The notes beneath the pieces are model-generated. The model saw only the letters and a list, made by a program, of their open reading frames with translations, did no database searches and was not told the DNA's origin. The position numbers and the translations under genes were made by a program. From NCBI GenBank assembly GCA_028290385.1, contig JAQGJZ010000078.1, positions 1 to 10,246 on the forward strand: DNA of 10,246 nt. Direction: 5' to 3'. This stretch comes from Enterovirga sp. GTDB lineage: Bacteria; Pseudomonadota; Alphaproteobacteria; Rhizobiales; Beijerinckiaceae. Position 1 is the stretch's first letter. Each line of letters begins with the position of its first letter. Of the stretch, positions 1,608-10,246 are shown piece by piece.

Positions 1608-2765
1608 CTAGAGCCGGCCGTCGTAGGCGGCCCGGAAGAGAGCGAGCGCGGCCTCGCGGTCGAGCGGCACGGGGTTGCCGCCGGCCGTCGGATCCTGCGG
1701 CGCCATGGCGGCGACCAGATCCGCCCGCGCATCGTCGACGCCGAAATCGCGCAGCGTGTGCGGCACGCCGACCCGCTCGCGCAGGGCCAGCACCCACTCC
1801 ATAAACCCGGCGAACCCGCCCGGGATGCCGAGATAGGCCGCCACGCGGCCGATCCGCTCCTCGATCGCCGGCCGGTTGAAGGCCAGCACGTAGGGCATGA
1901 ACACGGCATTCGTCATGCCGTGATGCGTGTCGTAGAGCGCGCCGACCGGGTGGGACAGCGCGTGGATCGCGCCGAGCCCCTTCTGGAACGCGGTCGCGCC
2001 CATGGCCGCCGCCGCCATCATGTCCGCCCGGGCATCGAGGTCGCGTCCGTCCGCCACCGCGCGCGCGAGAGCCTCCTTGACGAGCCGCATGCCCTCGGCC
2101 GCGATGCCGTCCGCCATTGGGTGAAAGCCCGGCGCGCAATACGCTTCCAGGCAATGCGCGAGCGCGTCCATGCCGGTTCCGGCCGTGATGGCCGGCGGCA
2201 TGCCGATCGTCAGCTCGGGATCGCAGATCGTGATCGCCGGCATCATCTTCGGGTGAAAAATCACCTTCTTGGTATGGGTCGCCTCGTCCGTGATCACGCC
2301 GGCGCGGCCGACCTCCGATCCGGTCCCGGCCGTCGTCGGCACCGCGACGATCGGGGCGATCCCGTTCGGGTCGGCGCGCGTCCACCAATCGCCGACATCC
2401 TCGAAATCCCACATCGGCCGGGTCTGGCCGGCCATGAAGGCGACGACCTTGCCGGCATCGAGCGCCGAGCCGCCGCCGAACGCGACGACGCCGTCATGCC
2501 CGCCCTGCCGCAGGGCCGCGATGCCGGCCTCCACGTTCGCGGCGACCGGGTTCGGCTTGATGTCCGAGAACACGGCCCGGCCGAGCCCGGCCGCGTCCAG
2601 CGCCGCGAGCGCCGATTCTACGATCGGCATGGTCGCGAGGCGCGGATCGGTGACCAGCAGCGGCCGGGACATGCCGGCCGCGCGCACCGCCTCCGCCAGC
2701 TCCGCGATTCGGCCTGCGCCGAAGCGGACCGACGTCGGAAAATTCCAGTTCGCACGTTGGAGCAT
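1608..2765 (-). CDS. Iron-containing (group III) alcohol dehydrogenase
   Basis: A 385-residue NAD(P)-dependent alcohol/aldehyde oxidoreductase of the Fe-ADH family, normal full length. The N-terminal nucleotide-binding half shows the F-G-x-G start motif (about 15-18), GGGSALDAGK at 97-106 and TTAGTGSE at 144-151. The C-terminal helical half has the expected metal ligands Asp200 and His204 (GMDALAH), His268 (GAIHALSHP) and His282 (THHG). The ATG at 2765-2763 is clear, but the upstream ribosome-binding site is weak. It lies on the same strand as the phosphonate genes, separated from them by the toxin-antitoxin pair. Known relatives include PhpC, which reduces phosphonoacetaldehyde to hydroxyethylphosphonate. 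Here the enzyme may interconvert those two compounds, joining hydroxyethylphosphonate to the AEP route. That is inference from context: the family is broad (1,2-diol, butanol, 4-hydroxybutyrate and other substrates), and sequence alone does not fix the substrate. Confidence 0.92.
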   Translation of the reverse strand: MLQRANWNFPTSVRFGAGRIAELAEAVRAAGMSRPLLVTDPRLATMPIVESALAALDAAGLGRAVFSDIKPNPVAANVEAGIAALRQGGHDGVVAFGGGSALDAGKVVAFMAGQTRPMWDFEDVGDWWTRADPNGIAPIVAVPTTAGTGSEVGRAGVITDEATHTKKVIFHPKMMPAITICDPELTIGMPPAITAGTGMDALAHCLEAYCAPGFHPMADGIAAEGMRLVKEALARAVADGRDLDARADMMAAAAMGATAFQKGLGAIHALSHPVGALYDTHHGMTNAVFMPYVLAFNRPAIEERIGRVAAYLGIPGGFAGFMEWVLALRERVGVPHTLRDFGVDDARADLVAAMAPQDPTAGGNPVPLDREAALALFRAAYDGRL

Positions 2766-2823: not shown

Positions 2824-2840
2824 ACCGGGTGGCGGGCAAC

Positions 2841-3101
2841 ATGGCGGTTTTCACCATCCATGAGGCGAAGACGAACCTGTCGAAGCTCATCGCACAGGCG
2901 GAGGCCGGCGAGGAGGTCGTGATCGCGCGCGGCCGTGAGCCGGTGGTCAGGTTGACGCCGGTCGCGCCCCGGCTCGAGCGGCGGATCCTCGGGCGGCTGC
3001 AGGGACAGGCAACGCTGCCCGACGCGGTTTTCTTCGACCCGCTTCCAGAAGACGAGCTGCGCCTGTGGGAGGGCTTGGGGGAGGAGCAGTTGGAGCCGTG
3101 A
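2841..3101 (+). CDS. Phd/YefM-family antitoxin of a type II toxin-antitoxin pair
   Basis: An 86-residue protein starting MAVFTIHEAKTNLSKLI, typical of the Phd/YefM fold: an N-terminal DNA-binding and dimerisation domain (about 1-50, including GEEVVIARGREPVVRLTPV). A flexible acidic tail (FDPLPEDELRLWEG, about 65-78) is the kind that wraps around and blocks a PIN toxin. I chose the ATG at 2841 because it gives the standard family N-terminus; an in-frame GTG at 2829 would add four residues. GGTGG at 2828-2832 can serve as ribosome-binding site. The stop overlaps the toxin start in GTGA, so the two are translationally coupled. Together with the toxin the protein probably represses its own promoter through the tandem palindromes at 2803-2823. 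Family assignment is firm; the autoregulation is inferred. Confidence 0.9.
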   Translation: MAVFTIHEAKTNLSKLIAQAEAGEEVVIARGREPVVRLTPVAPRLERRILGRLQGQATLPDAVFFDPLPEDELRLWEGLGEEQLEP

Positions 3102-3484
3102 GGCTGCTCATCGACACCCACGCCTGGGCCTGGGCGGTGGACGGCGACCCGCGGCTTTCCGTGCGGGCCCGTGCGTTGATTGCAGACCCCGCGACCGAGC
3201 TGATCGTCAGCGCCGTCGTGCCGTGGGAGCTCGCGACCAAGTTCCGGGTCGGGAAATGGGCGCAGGCCGAAGCGATCCTGCGCGACCTCGATGCCGCTCT
3301 CGACCAGCCGAATGTGCGCCCGCTCGGAATCAGCCATGCCCATGCCAAGCGGGCCGGTCTGCTCGCGTTTCCCAATCGCGACCCGTTCGACCGCATTCTC
3401 GCGGCCCAGGCCGAGTTGGAAGGCCTGGCGCTGATGACCGCCGACAGCGTGTTTGGGCAGGGCGGAATCGAGGTGGTGTGGTGA
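3098..3484 (+). CDS. vapC: VapC-family PIN-domain ribonuclease toxin
   Basis: A 128-residue PIN-domain protein, normal length for a VapC toxin, which is a magnesium-dependent endoribonuclease that usually cuts tRNA or rRNA. The acidic active-site residues are in place: Asp6 (LLIDTHAW), Glu44 (VPWELATK), Asp95 and Asp98 (NRDPFDRILAAQA) and Asp116 (LMTADSVF). The start is the GTG at 3098, which overlaps the antitoxin stop (GTGA); it gives the canonical N-terminus MRLLIDTHAW and has GGAGGAG at 3080-3086. A longer in-frame reading from 3065 would add a Gly-rich leader unlike the family. The gene ends 10 bp from the stop of the convergent PLP enzyme. Nothing suggests it is broken. The RNA target cannot be read from the sequence. 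Confidence 0.92.
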   Translation: MRLLIDTHAWAWAVDGDPRLSVRARALIADPATELIVSAVVPWELATKFRVGKWAQAEAILRDLDAALDQPNVRPLGISHAHAKRAGLLAFPNRDPFDRILAAQAELEGLALMTADSVFGQGGIEVVW

Positions 3485-3494
3485 CACCCGGCGA

Positions 3495-4847
3495 TCACCC
3501 GGCCGCGATGGCCGCGTCGATGATGGCGAGCGCGCCCATCATCTCCGATTCCGTCACGACAAGGGGAGGGGTGAGCGTGAGCACGTTCCCCATCGTGGTC
3601 TTGAACGACAAGCCCGCATCGAGGCAGCGGTAGAGCACCGCTTCGGCGAGGTCGCCGTCAGGCTCCTTGGTGTCGCGGTCGCGGACGAGCTCGATGCCGA
3701 GCACCAGCCCGCGCCCGCGCACGTCGCCGATGGCGGGGTGGCGGGCCTTCATGTCCTCCATGCGGGCGAGGGCGGCCGTTCCGACCCGGGCGGCGTTTCC
3801 GGCCAGGTCCTCGTCCTCGATCACCGCGATGGTTTCGAGCGCGGCCCGGGTCGTCACCGGGTTCTTCTCGTGCGTGTAGTGCCCGAAAGCCCAGGCGCCC
3901 CCGAGATCGAGCTCCGGGCGGGCGATCACGGCCGCGATCGGCAGGATGCCGCCGCCGAGCGCCTTGCCCAGCACCAGGATATCCGGCGCAACGCCGTCGT
4001 GATCGCAGGCGAACATGCGCCCGGTCTTGCCGAGCCCGGTCGGGATCTCGTCGAAGATCAGCAAAACGCCGTGGCGGTCGCAGATCCGGCGCACCTCGGC
4101 CCAGAACCCCTGCGGCGGGAGGTAGGGCACGGCGCGCGTCGGCTCGGCGACGAAGCAGGCAACGTCCGTGTCGTGCGACAGGACGTAGTCGATCATGCGG
4201 GCGCAGGCCGCGCCGCTCTCCTGCGGGCTCGCCGTGCCGTAGGGGCAGCGATAGCCCCCGAAGGGCGCGACCTGCATGGCGCCCGCGACGAGCGGGGCGG
4301 CCGGGCCCGACCGGAACAGCACCTCGCCGGACAGGGCCGAGGCGCCGAAGCCGGCGCCGTGAAACGCATCCCAGAAAGACAGGGTCTTGTGGCGCCCGGT
4401 GGCTGTGCGGGCGAGTTTCACCGCGACCTCGATCGCGTCCGAGCCGCCGGTCGTGAACAGCACCTTGGACAGCGTGCCCGGCGCGATCGCGGCGAGCTTC
4501 TCGGCAAGCTCCAGCGCCGGCCGGCAGGCATAGCGGCGCGGCGCGAAGGGCAGCGAATCCATCTGCTCGGCGATCGCCCGCTTCACGCGCGGGTGGCCGT
4601 AGCCGATGTGGTGGACGTTGTTGCCGTGAAAATCCATGTAGCGCCGGCCCGCCACGTCCTCGATCCAGATCCCCTCGGCCTTCGCGATCCCATTGAGGCA
4701 GGGTGTGGAGACGGATTGGTGCAGAAACGCGTCGGCATCCCGGGCGAGCAGGTGGCGGGTGTCCCCGTCGAGCGCGCGGGCCTGCCACGCGGCCCGGCGG
4801 TCGGTCAGGTTCGTATCGCTTTCGGATTCCGCGACGGCGCGCAGCAT
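3495..4847 (-). CDS. pbfA: PLP-dependent class III aminotransferase-fold enzyme, probable (R)-1-hydroxy-2-aminoethylphosphonate ammonia-lyase (PbfA-like)
   Basis: A 450-residue fold-type I PLP enzyme, full length. Visible elements: FHGNNVHHIGYGHP (73-86), the phosphate-binding TTGGSDAIE (132-140), FWDAFHG (158-164), Asp266 in IFDEIPTGLGKTG contacting the pyridine nitrogen, Lys295 in LGKALGGG as Schiff-base lysine, and HYTHEKNP (323-330). The FHGN segment and DEIPTGLGKTG in place of the usual DEVQTGFGRTG recall the PbfA group, which eliminates ammonia from (R)-1-hydroxy-AEP to give phosphonoacetaldehyde. A true transaminase acting on AEP or another amine is the main alternative; databases usually label such proteins only as aspartate aminotransferase family. 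Its ATG shares one base with the stop of the FAD oxidoreductase gene (TGATG), so the two are co-translated. The locus supports a phosphonate role strongly; the exact reaction is inferred. Confidence 0.85.
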   Translation of the reverse strand: MLRAVAESESDTNLTDRRAAWQARALDGDTRHLLARDADAFLHQSVSTPCLNGIAKAEGIWIEDVAGRRYMDFHGNNVHHIGYGHPRVKRAIAEQMDSLPFAPRRYACRPALELAEKLAAIAPGTLSKVLFTTGGSDAIEVAVKLARTATGRHKTLSFWDAFHGAGFGASALSGEVLFRSGPAAPLVAGAMQVAPFGGYRCPYGTASPQESGAACARMIDYVLSHDTDVACFVAEPTRAVPYLPPQGFWAEVRRICDRHGVLLIFDEIPTGLGKTGRMFACDHDGVAPDILVLGKALGGGILPIAAVIARPELDLGGAWAFGHYTHEKNPVTTRAALETIAVIEDEDLAGNAARVGTAALARMEDMKARHPAIGDVRGRGLVLGIELVRDRDTKEPDGDLAEAVLYRCLDAGLSFKTTMGNVLTLTPPLVVTESEMMGALAIIDAAIAAG

Positions 4848-5971
4848 CACAGGTCCAGCTCCTCGACCACGTCCTCCGCCACCGCAAAGGCGCAGGACAT
4901 CCCCGCCCCGGTCGCGACCGTGACGACCCGGATTTCGGGACAGGGTGCCGCAACCACCACGGGGGCGGCGGCCGAGGAGGCGTAGGTGCCGGTCCAGCGC
5001 TCGACCACGGCCGGCGCCTCCCCCAGCAACTCGGCGTATTCGGCGAGGATCATGCGGTCGATAGCCTCGTCCGCGAACGGGTCCGGCGTCGAGTCGTAGG
5101 TGTGCGAATCGCCGACCACGCAGGTGCCGTCGCGGGAGGCGGCGACGATCAGGTGGATGCCAGCCGCGAGCTGCGGACCGGCCTCCCGTTCGAGCCGCGA
5201 TCGGAGGGCTGCGGCCTCGGGCAGGTCGGCGAAGCCACCATAGCGGATCAGGGACAGGTCGCTCATCAGCACATGCGGCAGCACCGGCCTGTCTGGGCGC
5301 ACGCGCAGCATCTGCAGCTTGCAGCGGGTGAGCCCGTAGGGCGCGAGCGCGTCCGGAAACAGCGTCGTCGAATCGTCGCCCGGCGCCACCACGATCCGGC
5401 GCGCCCGGATCGGGCCGCGGCTGGTCAGGAGCTCGCCCGGCCCGGCCGCGGTCACGGCCGTCTGCCACAGGAACGTCACCCCGAACGCGGCCGCAAGATA
5501 GGCGGCGAGGCGGGGCAGGGCGTCGCGCGGTTCGATGCGGATCTCGTGCGGGCTGAGGAGCCCGGCCGAGACGCCTGGCGCAAGCTGCGGAAACCGCGCC
5601 GCGGCCTCGCGGCCGGTGAGGAGGGAGCAGCCATCGCCCATCGGCCCCGCCGCGAAAGCCTCGACCAGCGCCGCTGCCTCCGGCCGCCGCGCCGCGGTGA
5701 GCATGCCGCGCTGGTGGATGGCGATTCCGGCCGCCTCGGCGAGCTCCAGCCAGATGTCGCGCGAGCGCCGGGCGCGGCCCCACATGGCGCCCTCCGCCTG
5801 ACCGGACACGGTGACGAAGCCGAAATTGCGGACCGACGCGCCGTTCGCGCGGGCGTCGCGATCGACCACCACGACCCGCAGCCCGCGCCTCGCACAGGCC
5901 AGCGCATGCGCGAGCCCGACGATGCCGGCCCCGACGATTGCGACGTCGCATGGTGCGTCGGGCCCGGTCAC
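4847..5971 (-). CDS. FAD-dependent oxidoreductase of phosphonate clusters (TIGR03364-like), probable AEP/N-methyl-AEP oxidase
   Basis: A 374-residue DAO-fold flavoprotein. The N-terminal dinucleotide-binding motif is VAIVGAGIVGLAHA (10-23, GxGxxG at 14-19), with Asp37 closing the second strand as the ribose contact. GASVRNFGF (44-52) follows in the substrate/FAD region. Other landmarks are IRYGGF (242-247), GDSHTYD (287-293) and the C-terminal FAD-binding ATGAGMSCAFAVAED (353-367). Such enzymes recur beside AEP genes. Studied members (named PbfC and PbfD in the literature) oxidise N-methyl-AEP, and some plain AEP, to phosphonoacetaldehyde with release of the amine and reduction of oxygen. They thus can replace the transaminase PhnW. 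The start is a GTG at 5971-5969 overlapping the permease stop (GTGA); no downstream ATG keeps the nucleotide motif. Cytoplasmic, no signal. Family firm; preferred substrate (AEP, N-methyl-AEP or other) unknown. Confidence 0.88.
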   Translation of the reverse strand: MTGPDAPCDVAIVGAGIVGLAHALACARRGLRVVVVDRDARANGASVRNFGFVTVSGQAEGAMWGRARRSRDIWLELAEAAGIAIHQRGMLTAARRPEAAALVEAFAAGPMGDGCSLLTGREAAARFPQLAPGVSAGLLSPHEIRIEPRDALPRLAAYLAAAFGVTFLWQTAVTAAGPGELLTSRGPIRARRIVVAPGDDSTTLFPDALAPYGLTRCKLQMLRVRPDRPVLPHVLMSDLSLIRYGGFADLPEAAALRSRLEREAGPQLAAGIHLIVAASRDGTCVVGDSHTYDSTPDPFADEAIDRMILAEYAELLGEAPAVVERWTGTYASSAAAPVVVAAPCPEIRVVTVATGAGMSCAFAVAEDVVEELDL

Positions 5972-7686
5972 CGCACGCGCCAGCGCTGCAGGCGCGCGAA
6001 GACGAAGCGCGACAGGCCGAGCTGGGCGAGCTTGGCGCCGATCGCGGTCAGGACGATCGCGCTCGCCATCGCGGCCGCGGCCGAGGTGGTGCCGGCCTCG
6101 TCCATATGGACGATCGCGACGGAGGCGAGCTTCGTCTCCGCCCCGTAGAGGAAGATCACGGCCGAAACCGTCGTCATTCCGTTCACGAACAGATAGACGG
6201 CAATATCGAGGATGGCCGGCATCGAGATCGGCACGGTGACGCGGGCAAAGGTCACCCAGAACGGGATTTTGAGCGAGGCGGACACCGCCTCGAACTCGCC
6301 GTCGAGGTTCTTCAGCGCCGTCGTGGCCGTCATGTGGGCGACGGTGTAGAAATGCGCGACCGAGTTGATGACGAGGATCGCGAGCGTTCCGTAGAGCCAG
6401 TTCAGCGGGTTCGACGGGGCATTAAAGAAGAACACATAGCCGAGCCCGATGACGAGGCCCGGTACGGCCATGGGCAGCATCGCCAAAAACTGCGCGAAGA
6501 AGCGGCCCGCCCCGAACTGCTTCGTCTTCTCGATCAGGTAGGCGCCCGTGAAGACGAGGCCGGTGCCGAGAAGCGCCGTCAGCGCCGCCATCTTCAGCGA
6601 CGTCCAGTACGGGTCCCAGCCTGACGGCTCGAAGCGCTCGAAATCGTAGTTCGCCAGCGTCGGGGTCAGGTTGTAGGGCCAGTAGGTGATGAACGAGGCC
6701 CAGACGGCGACGCCGTAGGTGCCGATCACCGTGCCGGCGACCAGGCCGCAGAACACGGTCAGCAGGCTGTCGGCGAGCGGGCGGCGCTTCGGCTCGAGCG
6801 GGACGGCGCGGGCCGACAGCAGCGCCACCTGCCGCCTCTGGACGGTCCGCTCGACCAGGAACGCCAGGATCGCGGGGGCGAGCAGCACGATCCCGACCAC
6901 CGCGCCCATCGGGAAATTCTGCTGCCCGACGACCTGCTTGTAGGCATCCGTCGCGAGCACGTTGAACTGGCCGCCGATCACCTTCGGGATGCCGAAATCG
7001 GTCACCACGAGGGTGAACACCACGAAGGCGGAGCTGATCAGGCCGTAGCGGGCGCCCGGCAGCGTCACGGTGCGGAACACCCGCGCGGGCCGCGTGCCGA
7101 GCGCCTCGGCGGCCTCGTAGAGGCGCCCATCCGCCAGCGCGAGGGCGGCGACGTTGATCACCAGCGCATGCGGCAGCGCATACAGGATCTCCGCGATCAC
7201 GATCCCGATCGGGCCGTAGATCGAGTTTCCGAACAGCGCGCCGCGGAGAAAGCCTTGGTTGCCGAAGATGTAGGTGAGCGAGATCGCGGCGAGCAGCGAG
7301 GGGGCGAAGACCGGCAGCAGCGCCGCCGCATAGAACAGGCCCTTCAGCCGCATGCGGCTGCGCGTCAGCGCATACGCGTAGGTGAAGGCCAGGGGCACGA
7401 CGATCGCGGTTGCGAGCGCCGCGACCGCGACGCTGTTGAACAGCGACGCGACCAGCGTCGGGGTGGAAAAGTAGGTCGCGAAGTTGCGCAGGCCCACAAA
7501 GGCGCCGCTCCCGTCCTCCACGCTCTTCGACAGCAGCGAGGCGAGCGGAAGCGCGATGATGCCGAGGAGCAGGGCCACGAGAAGCAGGATGAGCAGGCGC
7601 GCGACCGCAGCCTCGCTGAGGCTCATCCGGCGCGGATGCGGCGCGGCTCCGGTCAGGATGGCACCGCCTGCCACGGCCTCGGCCAC
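5968..7686 (-). CDS. phnU2: 2-aminoethylphosphonate ABC transporter permease, fused double permease (PhnU2/AepW-like)
   Basis: A 572-residue inner-membrane protein with two BPD-transporter permease domains in one chain, as in the FbpB/TIGR03262 type. About six membrane segments lie in each half (roughly 30-280 and 310-560). Each half keeps the cytoplasmic EAA loop that docks on the ATPase: EAAEALGTRPARVFRTVTLP (191-210), and EAVSASLKIPFWVTFARVTV beginning at 466. One ATPase homodimer would serve this single polypeptide. The chosen start is GTG at 7686, two bases after the ATPase stop, with GAGG 7 nt upstream. An ATG at 7626 (Met21) would give 552 residues, close to the family's usual size and starting just before the first membrane segment, but lacks a good ribosome-binding site. 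It overlaps the FAD oxidoreductase gene by 4 nt. Import of AEP-type phosphonates is inferred from family and neighbours. Confidence 0.9.
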   Translation of the reverse strand: MAEAVAGGAILTGAAPHPRRMSLSEAAVARLLILLLVALLLGIIALPLASLLSKSVEDGSGAFVGLRNFATYFSTPTLVASLFNSVAVAALATAIVVPLAFTYAYALTRSRMRLKGLFYAAALLPVFAPSLLAAISLTYIFGNQGFLRGALFGNSIYGPIGIVIAEILYALPHALVINVAALALADGRLYEAAEALGTRPARVFRTVTLPGARYGLISSAFVVFTLVVTDFGIPKVIGGQFNVLATDAYKQVVGQQNFPMGAVVGIVLLAPAILAFLVERTVQRRQVALLSARAVPLEPKRRPLADSLLTVFCGLVAGTVIGTYGVAVWASFITYWPYNLTPTLANYDFERFEPSGWDPYWTSLKMAALTALLGTGLVFTGAYLIEKTKQFGAGRFFAQFLAMLPMAVPGLVIGLGYVFFFNAPSNPLNWLYGTLAILVINSVAHFYTVAHMTATTALKNLDGEFEAVSASLKIPFWVTFARVTVPISMPAILDIAVYLFVNGMTTVSAVIFLYGAETKLASVAIVHMDEAGTTSAAAAMASAIVLTAIGAKLAQLGLSRFVFARLQRWRVR

Positions 7687-7688
7687 GC

Positions 7689-8771
7689 TCAGGCCTCGAC
7701 CGGAAACAGCCTGATGGACTCGGGCGGCAGCGCGACAAGGATCGTCTGCCCCGGGGCCATGCCGAGATCGCGCATGAGGTTGGCGGAAAAGTCGGCCGTG
7801 ATCGGCGTCGCGCCGGCATGGTCCGGCGCGAGCCGGGCCCGGCAATAGGCGCCGAGAAACTCCAGGCCGTCGATGCGGACGCTGAGCGCGTTCGCGTCCT
7901 GCGCCTGCACGCCCCTGACCCGGATCTCCTCCGGCCGGAAGCCCAGCTTGACCCGGGCGCCCGGCAGAAAGCCGCGTTCGCCGGCGCAATCCAGCACGAT
8001 CGAACCGGCCTGGACGCGCTGCGGACCGGTCACGACGCCGTCCAGGAAGGTCATGGCGCCGATGAAATCGGCCACGAAGGGCGTCACCGGGCGCTGGTAG
8101 ATGTCGGACGGCGTGCCGACCTGCTCGATCGCGCCGCGGTTCATCACCACGATCCGGTCGGCCATCGCGAGCGCTTCCTCCTGGTCGTGCGTGACCATGA
8201 TGGTGGTCACGCCGAGCCGCCGCTGCAGGTCGCGGATCTCCTCGCGCAATCGCACCCGCACCTTGGCGTCGAGGGCGGAGAGCGGCTCGTCGAGCAGCAG
8301 CAGCGAGGGCGAGGTGGCGAGCGCGCGGGCGAGCGCGACCCGCTTCTGCTGCCCGCCGGACAACTTCACCGGGTATTTGGTGCCCTGCTCGGGCATGCCG
8401 ACAAGGGCGAGGAGCTCGCGCACCCGGCTTTCGCGGGCAGCCCGCCGCATGCGGAGGTTGACCAGCCCGTAGCCGACGTTCTGCGACACGGTGAGGTTCG
8501 GAAACAGGGCGTAGGACTGGAACACGATGCCGAAATCGCGCTCCGCGGGCGGCGCGCGCGACACGTCCCGGCCGGCCATCCAGATCGCGCCCTCGTCGTG
8601 CCGGTCGAGCCCTGCGATCGCGCGGAGCAGGGTCGTTTTTCCGCAGCCGGACGGGCCGAGAAAGCAGACGAACTCCCCGCGCTGCACCTCGAGGTCGATC
8701 CCGTCCAGCGCCGTGAAGGCGCCGAACCGCCGGGTTAGGCCGGCAACCCGCAGGAACGGGGCGGTGCTCAT
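7689..8771 (-). CDS. phnT2: 2-aminoethylphosphonate ABC transporter ATP-binding protein (PhnT2/AepV-like)
   Basis: A 360-residue ABC ATPase with all core motifs intact: Walker A GPSGCGKTT (39-47), Q-loop Gln85 (VFQSYALFPNLTV), signature LSGGQQKRVALARA (137-150), Walker B LLLLDEP (157-163), D-loop SALD (165-168) and switch His195 (VTHDQEEA). A C-terminal TOBE-type extension (about 240-356) matches the MalK/PotA/FbpC subgroup that powers binding-protein-dependent import. It lies between the binding protein (41 nt upstream) and the permease (2 nt downstream). The ATG at 8771-8769 gives the standard N-terminus (FLRVAGLTRRFG), though its ribosome-binding site is weak. The ATPase alone could belong to a polyamine, iron or phosphonate importer; the AEP assignment rests on the neighbours and on its resemblance to the TIGR03258 group. 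Confidence 0.92.
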   Translation of the reverse strand: MSTAPFLRVAGLTRRFGAFTALDGIDLEVQRGEFVCFLGPSGCGKTTLLRAIAGLDRHDEGAIWMAGRDVSRAPPAERDFGIVFQSYALFPNLTVSQNVGYGLVNLRMRRAARESRVRELLALVGMPEQGTKYPVKLSGGQQKRVALARALATSPSLLLLDEPLSALDAKVRVRLREEIRDLQRRLGVTTIMVTHDQEEALAMADRIVVMNRGAIEQVGTPSDIYQRPVTPFVADFIGAMTFLDGVVTGPQRVQAGSIVLDCAGERGFLPGARVKLGFRPEEIRVRGVQAQDANALSVRIDGLEFLGAYCRARLAPDHAGATPITADFSANLMRDLGMAPGQTILVALPPESIRLFPVEA

Positions 8772-8812
8772 CGGGTGATGCCCAGCGCGTTCCGCCCCCC
8801 CTGCCGCAGGCG

Positions 8813-9841
8813 TCAGTTCTTCGGCGCCGCCTTGGCTTCGTAGCGCTTCGACCATTCGGCCAGAACGCGCTCGCGGTTCTCGGCCATCCAGCCGAGATCG
8901 TTCTTGATCATCGCCTTTTCGGCACCGGCCGGGTAGTTCGGCGGCGTGTTCTCGACGCCCGGATAGGCGACGATCGCGTAGGTCTTGGAATACAGCTCGT
9001 TCGCCTCCCGGGTAGCGCCCCAATCGGCGACCTTCTTGGCGAGCGCGAGGTTCTTCGTGCCCTTCACGATGCCGAAAGCCTCCTCCTCCCAGCCGACGCC
9101 CTCCTTGGGGAGGATCACGTCGATGGGGGCGCCCTTCGACTTCTCCGAGGCGCCGCGCATGTCGAGCGCGAGCCCGGCGACCCGTTCGCCGCGGGCCGCC
9201 TGCACGCAGGGTGCCGAGCCGGAATGGAGATAGGACGCGATGTTTGCGTGCAGGCCGTCCATGAAGGCCCAGCCCTTCTCCTCCCCCATGCTCTGCAGCC
9301 AGCCCGCCACCATCAGGTAGCCGGTGCCGGAGGAGGCCGGATGGGGCATCACCACCTTGCCCCTGAACTCGGGCTTGGTCAGGTCGGCCCAGGAGCCGGG
9401 GGCGGCGATCTTGTCCTTCGCGGCCTCGGCCGTGTTGAAGCAGACGACGCCCAGGAACGCGTCCATGCCGGTCCAGGTATGCGGCCCCTTGGTGGGCCGG
9501 AACGTGTCCTTCAGCTGGTCGACGCCGGCCGGCTTGTAGTCCTCGAGCAGCCCGGCCTTGTCGAAGACGAGCAGGCTCGAGGCGGCAAGCCCGAGCACCA
9601 TGTCGGCGCGGGGATTGTCCTTCTCGGCCATGAAGCGGGCCGTGATCACGCCCGTGCTGTCGCGGACCCAGACCACCTCGGCCTCGGGCACCTTCGTCTC
9701 GATGGAGCGCTTGAAGGGCGCGAGCTGGTCGTTTTCCAGCGCCGTGTAGATCGTGAGCCGCGTCTTTGTCTGCGCCGCCGCCGCTCCCGCGAGACCGCAT
9801 ACGAGCCCGGCCGTCAGCGCCGCCGTGATCCAGGACCTCAT
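8813..9841 (-). CDS. phnS2: 2-aminoethylphosphonate ABC transporter periplasmic binding protein (PhnS2/AepX-like)
   Basis: A 342-residue secreted solute-binding protein of the Fbp-like (COG1840-type) family. Residues 1-23 form a Sec signal peptide with cleavage after AAA (mature start QTKTRLTIYTALE). The mature part shows the usual two-lobe landmarks: TIYTALENDQ (30-39), the DSTGVITARF segment (61-70), GMDAFLGVVCFN (125-136) and MPHPASSGTGYLM (165-177). In this family the last carries Ser/Thr/Gly groups that hold the phosphonate or phosphate moiety. It lacks the tyrosine pair typical of iron binders at the C-terminal lobe as far as I can judge, which fits an organic anion ligand. The ATG at 9841-9839 has AGGGG 7 nt upstream. 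It is the first transporter gene, 116 nt after phnY. Matches the TIGR03261 group; AEP or a close analogue is the likely ligand, not proven from sequence. Confidence 0.9.
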   Translation of the reverse strand: MRSWITAALTAGLVCGLAGAAAAQTKTRLTIYTALENDQLAPFKRSIETKVPEAEVVWVRDSTGVITARFMAEKDNPRADMVLGLAASSLLVFDKAGLLEDYKPAGVDQLKDTFRPTKGPHTWTGMDAFLGVVCFNTAEAAKDKIAAPGSWADLTKPEFRGKVVMPHPASSGTGYLMVAGWLQSMGEEKGWAFMDGLHANIASYLHSGSAPCVQAARGERVAGLALDMRGASEKSKGAPIDVILPKEGVGWEEEAFGIVKGTKNLALAKKVADWGATREANELYSKTYAIVAYPGVENTPPNYPAGAEKAMIKNDLGWMAENRERVLAEWSKRYEAKAAPKN

Positions 9842-9957
9842 CTCAGCACCCCTGTCGCTCGCGTCCGTGTGACCCGGACCGTTTTGAGCCGCTCGTCAGT
9901 ACACGCCGGGCCGTCGCGGCGGACAAGCCGGAAATTTCACCACATTTGCCAACTTTT
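9842..9957 (-). other. phnY-phnS2 intergenic region (116 bp)
   Basis: No gene is seen. Directly after the phnY stop the DNA is relatively AT-rich and includes the 8-bp palindrome GAAATTTC, then a GC-rich stretch. There is no hairpin followed by a T-run on the minus strand, so I see no intrinsic terminator separating phnY from the transporter genes; read-through is plausible. The binding-protein gene's ribosome-binding site is AGGGG at 9849-9853. Confidence 0.5.
9898..9926 (-). promoter_or_regulatory. Weak candidate internal promoter for the transporter operon
   Basis: On the minus strand TTGTCC (9926-9921) and TGTACT (9903-9898) are 17 bp apart, each matching 4 of 6 sigma-70 consensus bases. 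They would start transcription about 50 nt before the binding-protein ATG. Such matches occur by chance; this is only a pointer. Confidence 0.22.
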
Positions 9958-10246
9958 TCACACGGACCAGGGCATCGACCATGTGCGGACGTTGGTGAAG
10001 CTCTTCATCGCCTCGACCACCCCCTCCTTGTAGCCGAGCCCGGAATCCTTGATCCCGCCGAAGGGCGACATCTCGATCCGGTAGCCCGGCACCTCCCAGA
10101 TGTTCACCGTGCCCACCTCCAGCTCGGCGACGAAGCGCTGAACGTAGTCGAGGCGGTTGGTGCAAACGCCCGAGGACAGCCCATAAGCCGTGGCGTTCGA
10201 CAGTTTGATGACTGCCGCGATGTCGTCCGGGCAGCGGATGATCGGG
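9958..10246 (-). CDS. phnY: Phosphonoacetaldehyde dehydrogenase, C-terminal fragment
   Basis: The last 95 codons of an NAD-dependent aldehyde dehydrogenase enter from the right edge and end at TGA (9960-9958). Visible ALDH landmarks are [21 protein letters not shown] in the first 21 residues, GLSSGVCTN soon after, then [21 protein letters not shown] and [10 protein letters not shown], closing with [12 protein letters not shown]. The [18 protein letters not shown] segment and the FTNV-PW ending closely recall PhnY of Sinorhizobium meliloti, which oxidises phosphonoacetaldehyde to phosphonoacetate for hydrolysis by PhnA. The catalytic Cys and Glu lie outside the window, so activity cannot be judged. 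Being upstream of the AEP importer and amino-phosphonate enzymes supports this role strongly. A related semialdehyde dehydrogenase is the alternative. Confidence 0.88.

Follow-up and report, generated by a model that had tools for sequence, protein, structure and literature searches.

The 10,246-base contig JAQGJZ010000078.1 of an Enterovirga sp. (assembly GCA_028290385.1), referred to here in its entirety as the window, carries genes for catabolism of 2-aminoethylphosphonate (AEP), including a pbfD-type gene for a flavin adenine dinucleotide (FAD) oxidoreductase and a pbfA gene, and no gene for the PhnW transaminase. Comparison with related loci indicates, with a probability that we put at about 0.92, that these genes form the downstream portion of an ordinary operon, cut by the contig end, in which phnW, phnA and the 5′ part of phnY would precede the 3′ part of phnY, the importer genes, pbfD and pbfA. 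The apparent lack of phnW is, therefore, most likely due to the assembled DNA ending in mid-operon.

Truncation of the operon at the contig edge

The window is the whole of contig C188 of an assembly of 552 contigs and 3.14 Mb, estimated to be 77.78% complete and 1.59% contaminated. The minus-strand order seen is the 3′ part of phnY followed by phnS2, phnT2, phnU2, pbfD and pbfA, and this operon runs off the contig inside phnY; positions 3495 to 10246 are the assembled extent of an incomplete locus. An earlier reading of the sequence alone had noted that no PhnW was in the visible part. This was borne out for the window, as no PhnW match was present among the scanned open reading frames or in whole-bin searches that included the window, but the view ends at the contig end inside phnY. 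As the window is the entire contig, "not in view" means "beyond the contig end".

In the genome collection, the FAD enzyme is most similar (76% identity) to one encoded in a 21-kb locus of Enterovirga sp. RYN_504, termed L006, which is the same DNA at 8 of 8 probes as contig 118 of genome G003, placed in the genus of the window. Alignment of the window operon with L006 extends from the truncated phnY through the end of pbfA in three blocks with 76 to 83% DNA identity, the phnY-importer-pbfD-pbfA order being collinear, and protein identities are 76% for PbfD, 79% for PbfA and 83% for the PhnY piece. Whereas the window contig stops inside phnY, L006 has been assembled through the phnW end: upstream of phnY are phnA (538.2 bits; cut-off, 407.55), then phnW (TIGR02326, 466.0 bits with a cut-off of 400.8; NF010006, 510.5 bits with a cut-off of 296) and then a divergent LysR gene of the phn_lysR kind, scoring below its cut-off (296.4 versus 341.1). 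Projection of the L006 coordinates would place phnW about 2.5 to 3.7 kb beyond window position 10246. A phnW gene just beyond this position, which the sequence-only reading had itself named as a finding that would count against it, is present in the sister genome, but the adjoining contig of the source genome was not found in the bin.

The survey of relatives covered 60 genomes (that of the window itself, another 8 from the genus, 27 of the family and 24 of the order), with at most 27 candidates per genome being scored for TIGR03364. Matches over cut-off were obtained for PbfA in 9, PhnW in 9, PhnX in 8, TIGR03364 in 6 and PhnA in 6 of these genomes. In each of the five relatives in which PhnA accompanies a PbfA above its cut-off (G003, G018, G033, G041 and G053), PhnW also exceeded its cut-off. 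Genome G018, of another genus of the same family, has a lysR gene and a phnW-phnA-phnY-substrate-binding protein-permease-pbfA array (L141, G018:C15) in the same order as L006. The permease and pbfA matches of G018 are approximately 170 bases apart (L141, about 6338 to 6509), leaving no room for pbfD.

Another genome of the window's genus, G002, has a phnW fragment (141.7 bits, model positions 4 to 133, below the cut-off) that is 73% identical to L006 PhnW over 137 residues. This gene stops no more than two bases short of the edge of its 7,542-base contig (L144, G002:C174, 6280 to 7540), indicating that truncation of phnW by a contig edge occurs elsewhere in the genus. It is preceded by sequence matching the phn_DUF6 region of L006 without the intervening lysR gene of the latter, and no PbfA or TIGR03364 match was found in G002. 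Among the 8 other genomes of the genus, the pbfD-pbfA locus was detected only in G003. The remaining seven, five of which are at most 85% complete, gave no match to PbfA (E value of 1e-100) or TIGR03364 (E value of 1e-40), indicating a patchy distribution of the locus within the genus.

Gene content of the operon

Gene families were assigned by NCBIfam profile matches against curated cut-offs (Table 1). The identities of the importer, FAD oxidoreductase, PbfA and PhnY given by the sequence-only reading were upheld by matches far beyond chance, with all cut-offs being passed except by phnY, whose piece falls below the TIGR03250 cut-off of 635.65 bits, as would be expected of a truncated gene; this piece shares 83% identity with PhnY of L006, which is full length and scores 804.5 bits. 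All three importer subunits, encoded adjacently at 9841 to 5968 on the minus strand, exceed their curated cut-offs, the PhnU2 score having been taken on the reading frame at 5968 to 7635. The GTG start of pbfD overlaps the phnU2 stop and the ATG of pbfA overlaps the pbfD stop, suggesting that these genes are translationally coupled on one transcript. No pbfF was found among the operon genes scanned in the window and in L006.

Table 1. Genes in the assembled part of the AEP operon
Gene or product	Positions	Strand	Profile match and remarks
phnY 3′ end (phosphonoacetaldehyde dehydrogenase), last 95 codons	9958..10246	-	TIGR03250, 166.6 bits, model positions 381-472 of 472
phnS2-type substrate-binding protein, AEP ABC importer	8813..9841	-	TIGR03261, 436.7 bits (cut-off, 392.75)
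PhnT2-type ATP-binding protein of importer	7689..8771	-	TIGR03265, 500.5 bits (cut-off, 457.7); ATG at 8771
PhnU2-type permease, two fused permease domains	5968..7626	-	TIGR03262, 764.9 bits (cut-off, 593.25); putative ATG start at 7626
pbfD-type FAD oxidoreductase	4847..5971	-	TIGR03364, 421.8 bits (cut-off, 285.1); PF01266; GTG start
pbfA	3495..4850	-	NF049939, 643.9 bits (cut-off, 525); ATG start

The PbfA protein, which is over its family cut-off, carries a GKALGGG motif, presumably the site of the lysine that binds pyridoxal phosphate, and no entry named PbfA was present among the 60 Protein Data Bank matches listed of the 97 obtained by sequence. The FAD enzyme belongs to the PbfD family, being over the TIGR03364 cut-off and having a PF01266 (DAO) domain (140.2 bits); it has a GAGIVG motif at residues 14 to 19 and is encoded within the AEP degradation cluster, between PhnU2 and PbfA. 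An alternative is that this enzyme is similar to glycine or sarcosine oxidases and is in the operon by chance rather than being an aminophosphonate oxidase. Its solved relatives by sequence are indeed sarcosine and glycine oxidases, though these are not close (three weak matches, best E value of 8.5e-10), and the ThiO profile scores 68.8 bits against the far higher TIGR03364 score. The overlap of its gene ends with both neighbours and the presence of phnX or phnA near pbfD in 57 of 80 related loci also argue against a chance location. The TIGR03364 annotation is shared by PbfD1 of A. baumannii, and purified PbfC and PbfD are reported to be inactive on sarcosine and other analogues lacking the phosphonate group (PMC10590968). 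A glycine- or sarcosine-oxidase-like function is, on this evidence, very improbable.

The genes on the far side of pbfA from the importer differ from those of the sister locus. A Phd-type antitoxin (PF02604) and PIN-domain toxin (PF01850) pair is located at 2829 to 3484 on the plus strand, just downstream of pbfA and in the opposite orientation, whereas a Na/Pi symporter gene follows pbfA in L006. Beyond this pair is an Fe-containing alcohol dehydrogenase (1608 to 2765, minus strand), and an SLT-domain protein is also encoded on this side; none of these window genes has a counterpart in L006 at an E value of 1e-10. The dehydrogenase was rejected as a member of the pathway: the topically nearest of 16 listed families were all below cut-off (the best NCBIfam match, 4-hydroxybutyrate dehydrogenase, scored 335.6 bits versus 500, and the PsrA-type Phn_Fe-ADH 153.6 bits versus 423.7), and its gene is set apart from pbfA by the oppositely oriented pair.

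Distribution of pbfD and its neighbours

The PbfD loci examined were the best 80 of 106 confirmed, several being cut by contig ends, with neighbours detected by tblastn at thresholds that we set. A phnX gene was found near pbfD in 44 of the 80 loci, none of which also had phnW. In 13 loci phnA was present, three of these also having phnW (L006, L038 and L062); one locus had phnW only (L052), and 22 had none of the tested genes. A quick maximum-likelihood tree of PbfD was constructed with 85 rows (the window, the 80 loci and 4 from relatives, two rows being identical), midpoint rooted for drawing only. The window PbfD pairs with L006 (SH-aLRT support of 99). Beside this pair are 41 rows, comprising 35 with phnX as a neighbour, 5 without a neighbour found and 1 with phnW (L038).

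In L038, from Brucella cytisi, a phnWYA-pbfA-importer operon is present and the PbfD-family gene lies beyond lysR, facing away; its PbfD branch is among the longest in the tree. In four Latescibacterota/Gemmatimonadota loci (L053, L057, L058 and L066), phnA is directly upstream of pbfD, and no phnY, phnW or phnX match was obtained in the flank examined. In the one such locus that was scanned (L057:7724-11128), phnA scores 473.5 bits and the preceding gene is similar to that for HpnZ, an alcohol dehydrogenase proposed to act in phosphonate catabolism (TIGR03366, 304.3 bits, slightly below the cut-off of 328.1); as a speculation, this gene might replace PhnY.

Proposed absence of phnW from the source genome

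The sequence-only reading had gone further and proposed that, if phnW is truly absent, AEP and N-methyl-AEP would enter only by oxidative deamination, with the PbfA-like lyase widening the intake to (R)-1-hydroxy-AEP (R-HAEP). In such a scheme the PbfD-type oxidase would feed PhnY and then PhnA, as in the published "fourth pathway". Several observations weigh on the side of this proposal and against an operon with phnW that has been cut by the contig end. Profile searches of the bin gave no PhnW match near the cut-offs (TIGR02326 and NF010006) and no PhnA match (TIGR02335), such that the upstream extension of the operon in this organism rests on homology. Among the five other holders of TIGR03364 only G003 has PhnW, the remaining four (G022, G035, G048 and G052, each at least 98% complete) having PhnX and no PhnW match. 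Ten of the 13 PbfD loci with phnA show no phnW within the flank examined, and, L006 aside, most of the nearest relatives of the oxidase have phnX, and no phnW, as a neighbour. These relatives and locus counts indicate that pairing of PbfD with PhnX in the absence of PhnW does occur in this lineage and is common there, and a PbfD2-PhnYA route lacking PhnW has been described in Luteolibacter luteus (PMC10590968). PhnA passes its cut-off in genome G013, which has no PhnW; this genome was counted but not treated as a parallel, since its phnA is isolated (alone among nine genes tested in a 20-kb stretch, L140) and its PbfA-like protein, at 425.1 bits, is below the cut-off.

The significance of these absences depends on the bin, which is 77.8% complete. 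The product of PhnY requires PhnA, and hence PhnA is very probably possessed by the organism; as phnA was not found in the bin either, little can be read into the lack of phnW there. PhnX (TIGR01422) gave no match in the bin either. Thus, while the genome-wide search for phnW, phnX and phnA called for by the sequence-only reading found none of them, their absence from this bin does not test gene content. The window contig ends exactly where phnA and phnW are situated in G003 and G018, and phnW sequence is present in two genomes of the same genus, G003 and G002. The 10 loci with phnA and without phnW all fall in the half of the PbfD tree that does not contain the window, and the only two loci with phnA in the window's half (L006 and L038) both have phnW. 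Entry of AEP solely by oxidation in a genome lacking phnW is, therefore, improbable, and the proposal drawn from the absence of PhnW is not sustained; a phnW-containing operon cut by the contig end is preferred.

Other candidates in the bin were examined and rejected. The best TIGR02326 matches (80.5, 78.3, 64.9, 28.9 and 21.5 bits versus a cut-off of 400.8) were taken as other transaminases; at the same loose threshold all 14 control genomes also gave a match. A DNA search of the bin for the adjoining contig with the phnW end of L006 (L006:1-5800), in which 40 of 376 candidates were scored, found none; it recovered the phnY end already present in the window (178 bits, 81%) and, in addition, three short fragments with weak scores, none above 75.2 bits. 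In two contigs, C200 and C281, a minus-strand gene for an aldehyde dehydrogenase occupies the left edge (model positions 12 to 378 and 14 to 266; 145.4 and 151.8 bits), a position fitting the phnY gap. These were rejected as the remainder of phnY because they are only 31% and 32% identical to L006 PhnY compared to 83% for the window piece.

Proposed pathway and comparison with known systems

The activities of the operon products are predicted from their families. The importer would take in AEP and its relatives, which would be converted to phosphonoacetaldehyde by three enzymes: the predicted PhnW by transamination of AEP, PbfD by oxidation with O2 of N-methyl-AEP, releasing methylamine, and, to some degree, of AEP, and PbfA by elimination of ammonia from R-HAEP but not from its S isomer. 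Phosphonoacetaldehyde would then be oxidised by PhnY to phosphonoacetate, and a predicted PhnA would split this into acetate and phosphate. Phosphonoacetaldehyde as the common intermediate, as put forward by the sequence-only reading, is backed by the curated families and by published enzymology: PbfC and PbfD are reported to oxidise N-methyl-AEP to phosphonoacetaldehyde, with PbfD2 also accepting AEP well (kcat/KM of 3400 versus 13500 M-1 s-1) (PMC10590968), and PbfA is an established enzyme (PMC8154272). The published preference for N-methyl-AEP is about 400-fold for PbfC and 4-fold for PbfD2.

It is conceivable, though we hold this only tentatively, that a phnWAY-importer-pbfA operon of the G018 form acquired, between its phnU2 and pbfA genes and with overlapping gene ends, an oxidase whose closest relatives act in PbfD-PhnX pathways that lack PhnW; the difference could reflect either gain of pbfD in the window and G003 or its loss in G018. 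If an insertion did occur, there would be two routes from AEP to phosphonoacetaldehyde, transamination and oxidation, and the AEP activity of the oxidase could shift towards N-methyl-AEP without constraint. Comparison with G018 offers a modest case, open to testing, in which operons that are otherwise similar either have or lack an accessory oxidase. More generally, a contig edge can mimic a missing pathway step, and a useful control is whether an obligatory neighbour, here phnA, is also missing.

No paper joining Enterovirga and phosphonate turned up in our literature search, but both the likeliest arrangement and the PhnW-free one are already described in print. PhnW-free PbfD2-PhnX and PbfD2-PhnYA routes exist, and those described for Mariniblastus fucicola and L. 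luteus (PMC10590968) share with the window a PbfD-family oxidase in an AEP cluster and PhnY; their defining absence of phnW, however, amounts in the window's genome to a gene not found in an incomplete bin. The phnWYA clusters with pbfA and pbfD of the Hyphomicrobiales Mesorhizobium plurifarium and Labrys sp. WJW (Table 1 of PMC12366243) are listed there for also holding pbfF, which was not found among the genes scanned in the window and L006, and are likened here by gene content. The phnW and phnA genes of these clusters are matched in the sister locus, outside the window contig. As in the window, phnY, pbfA and a PbfD-family gene are together in these clusters, with the window having importer genes alongside, and the Enterovirga locus would represent one more AEP operon of the Hyphomicrobiales type broadened to N-methyl-AEP and R-HAEP.

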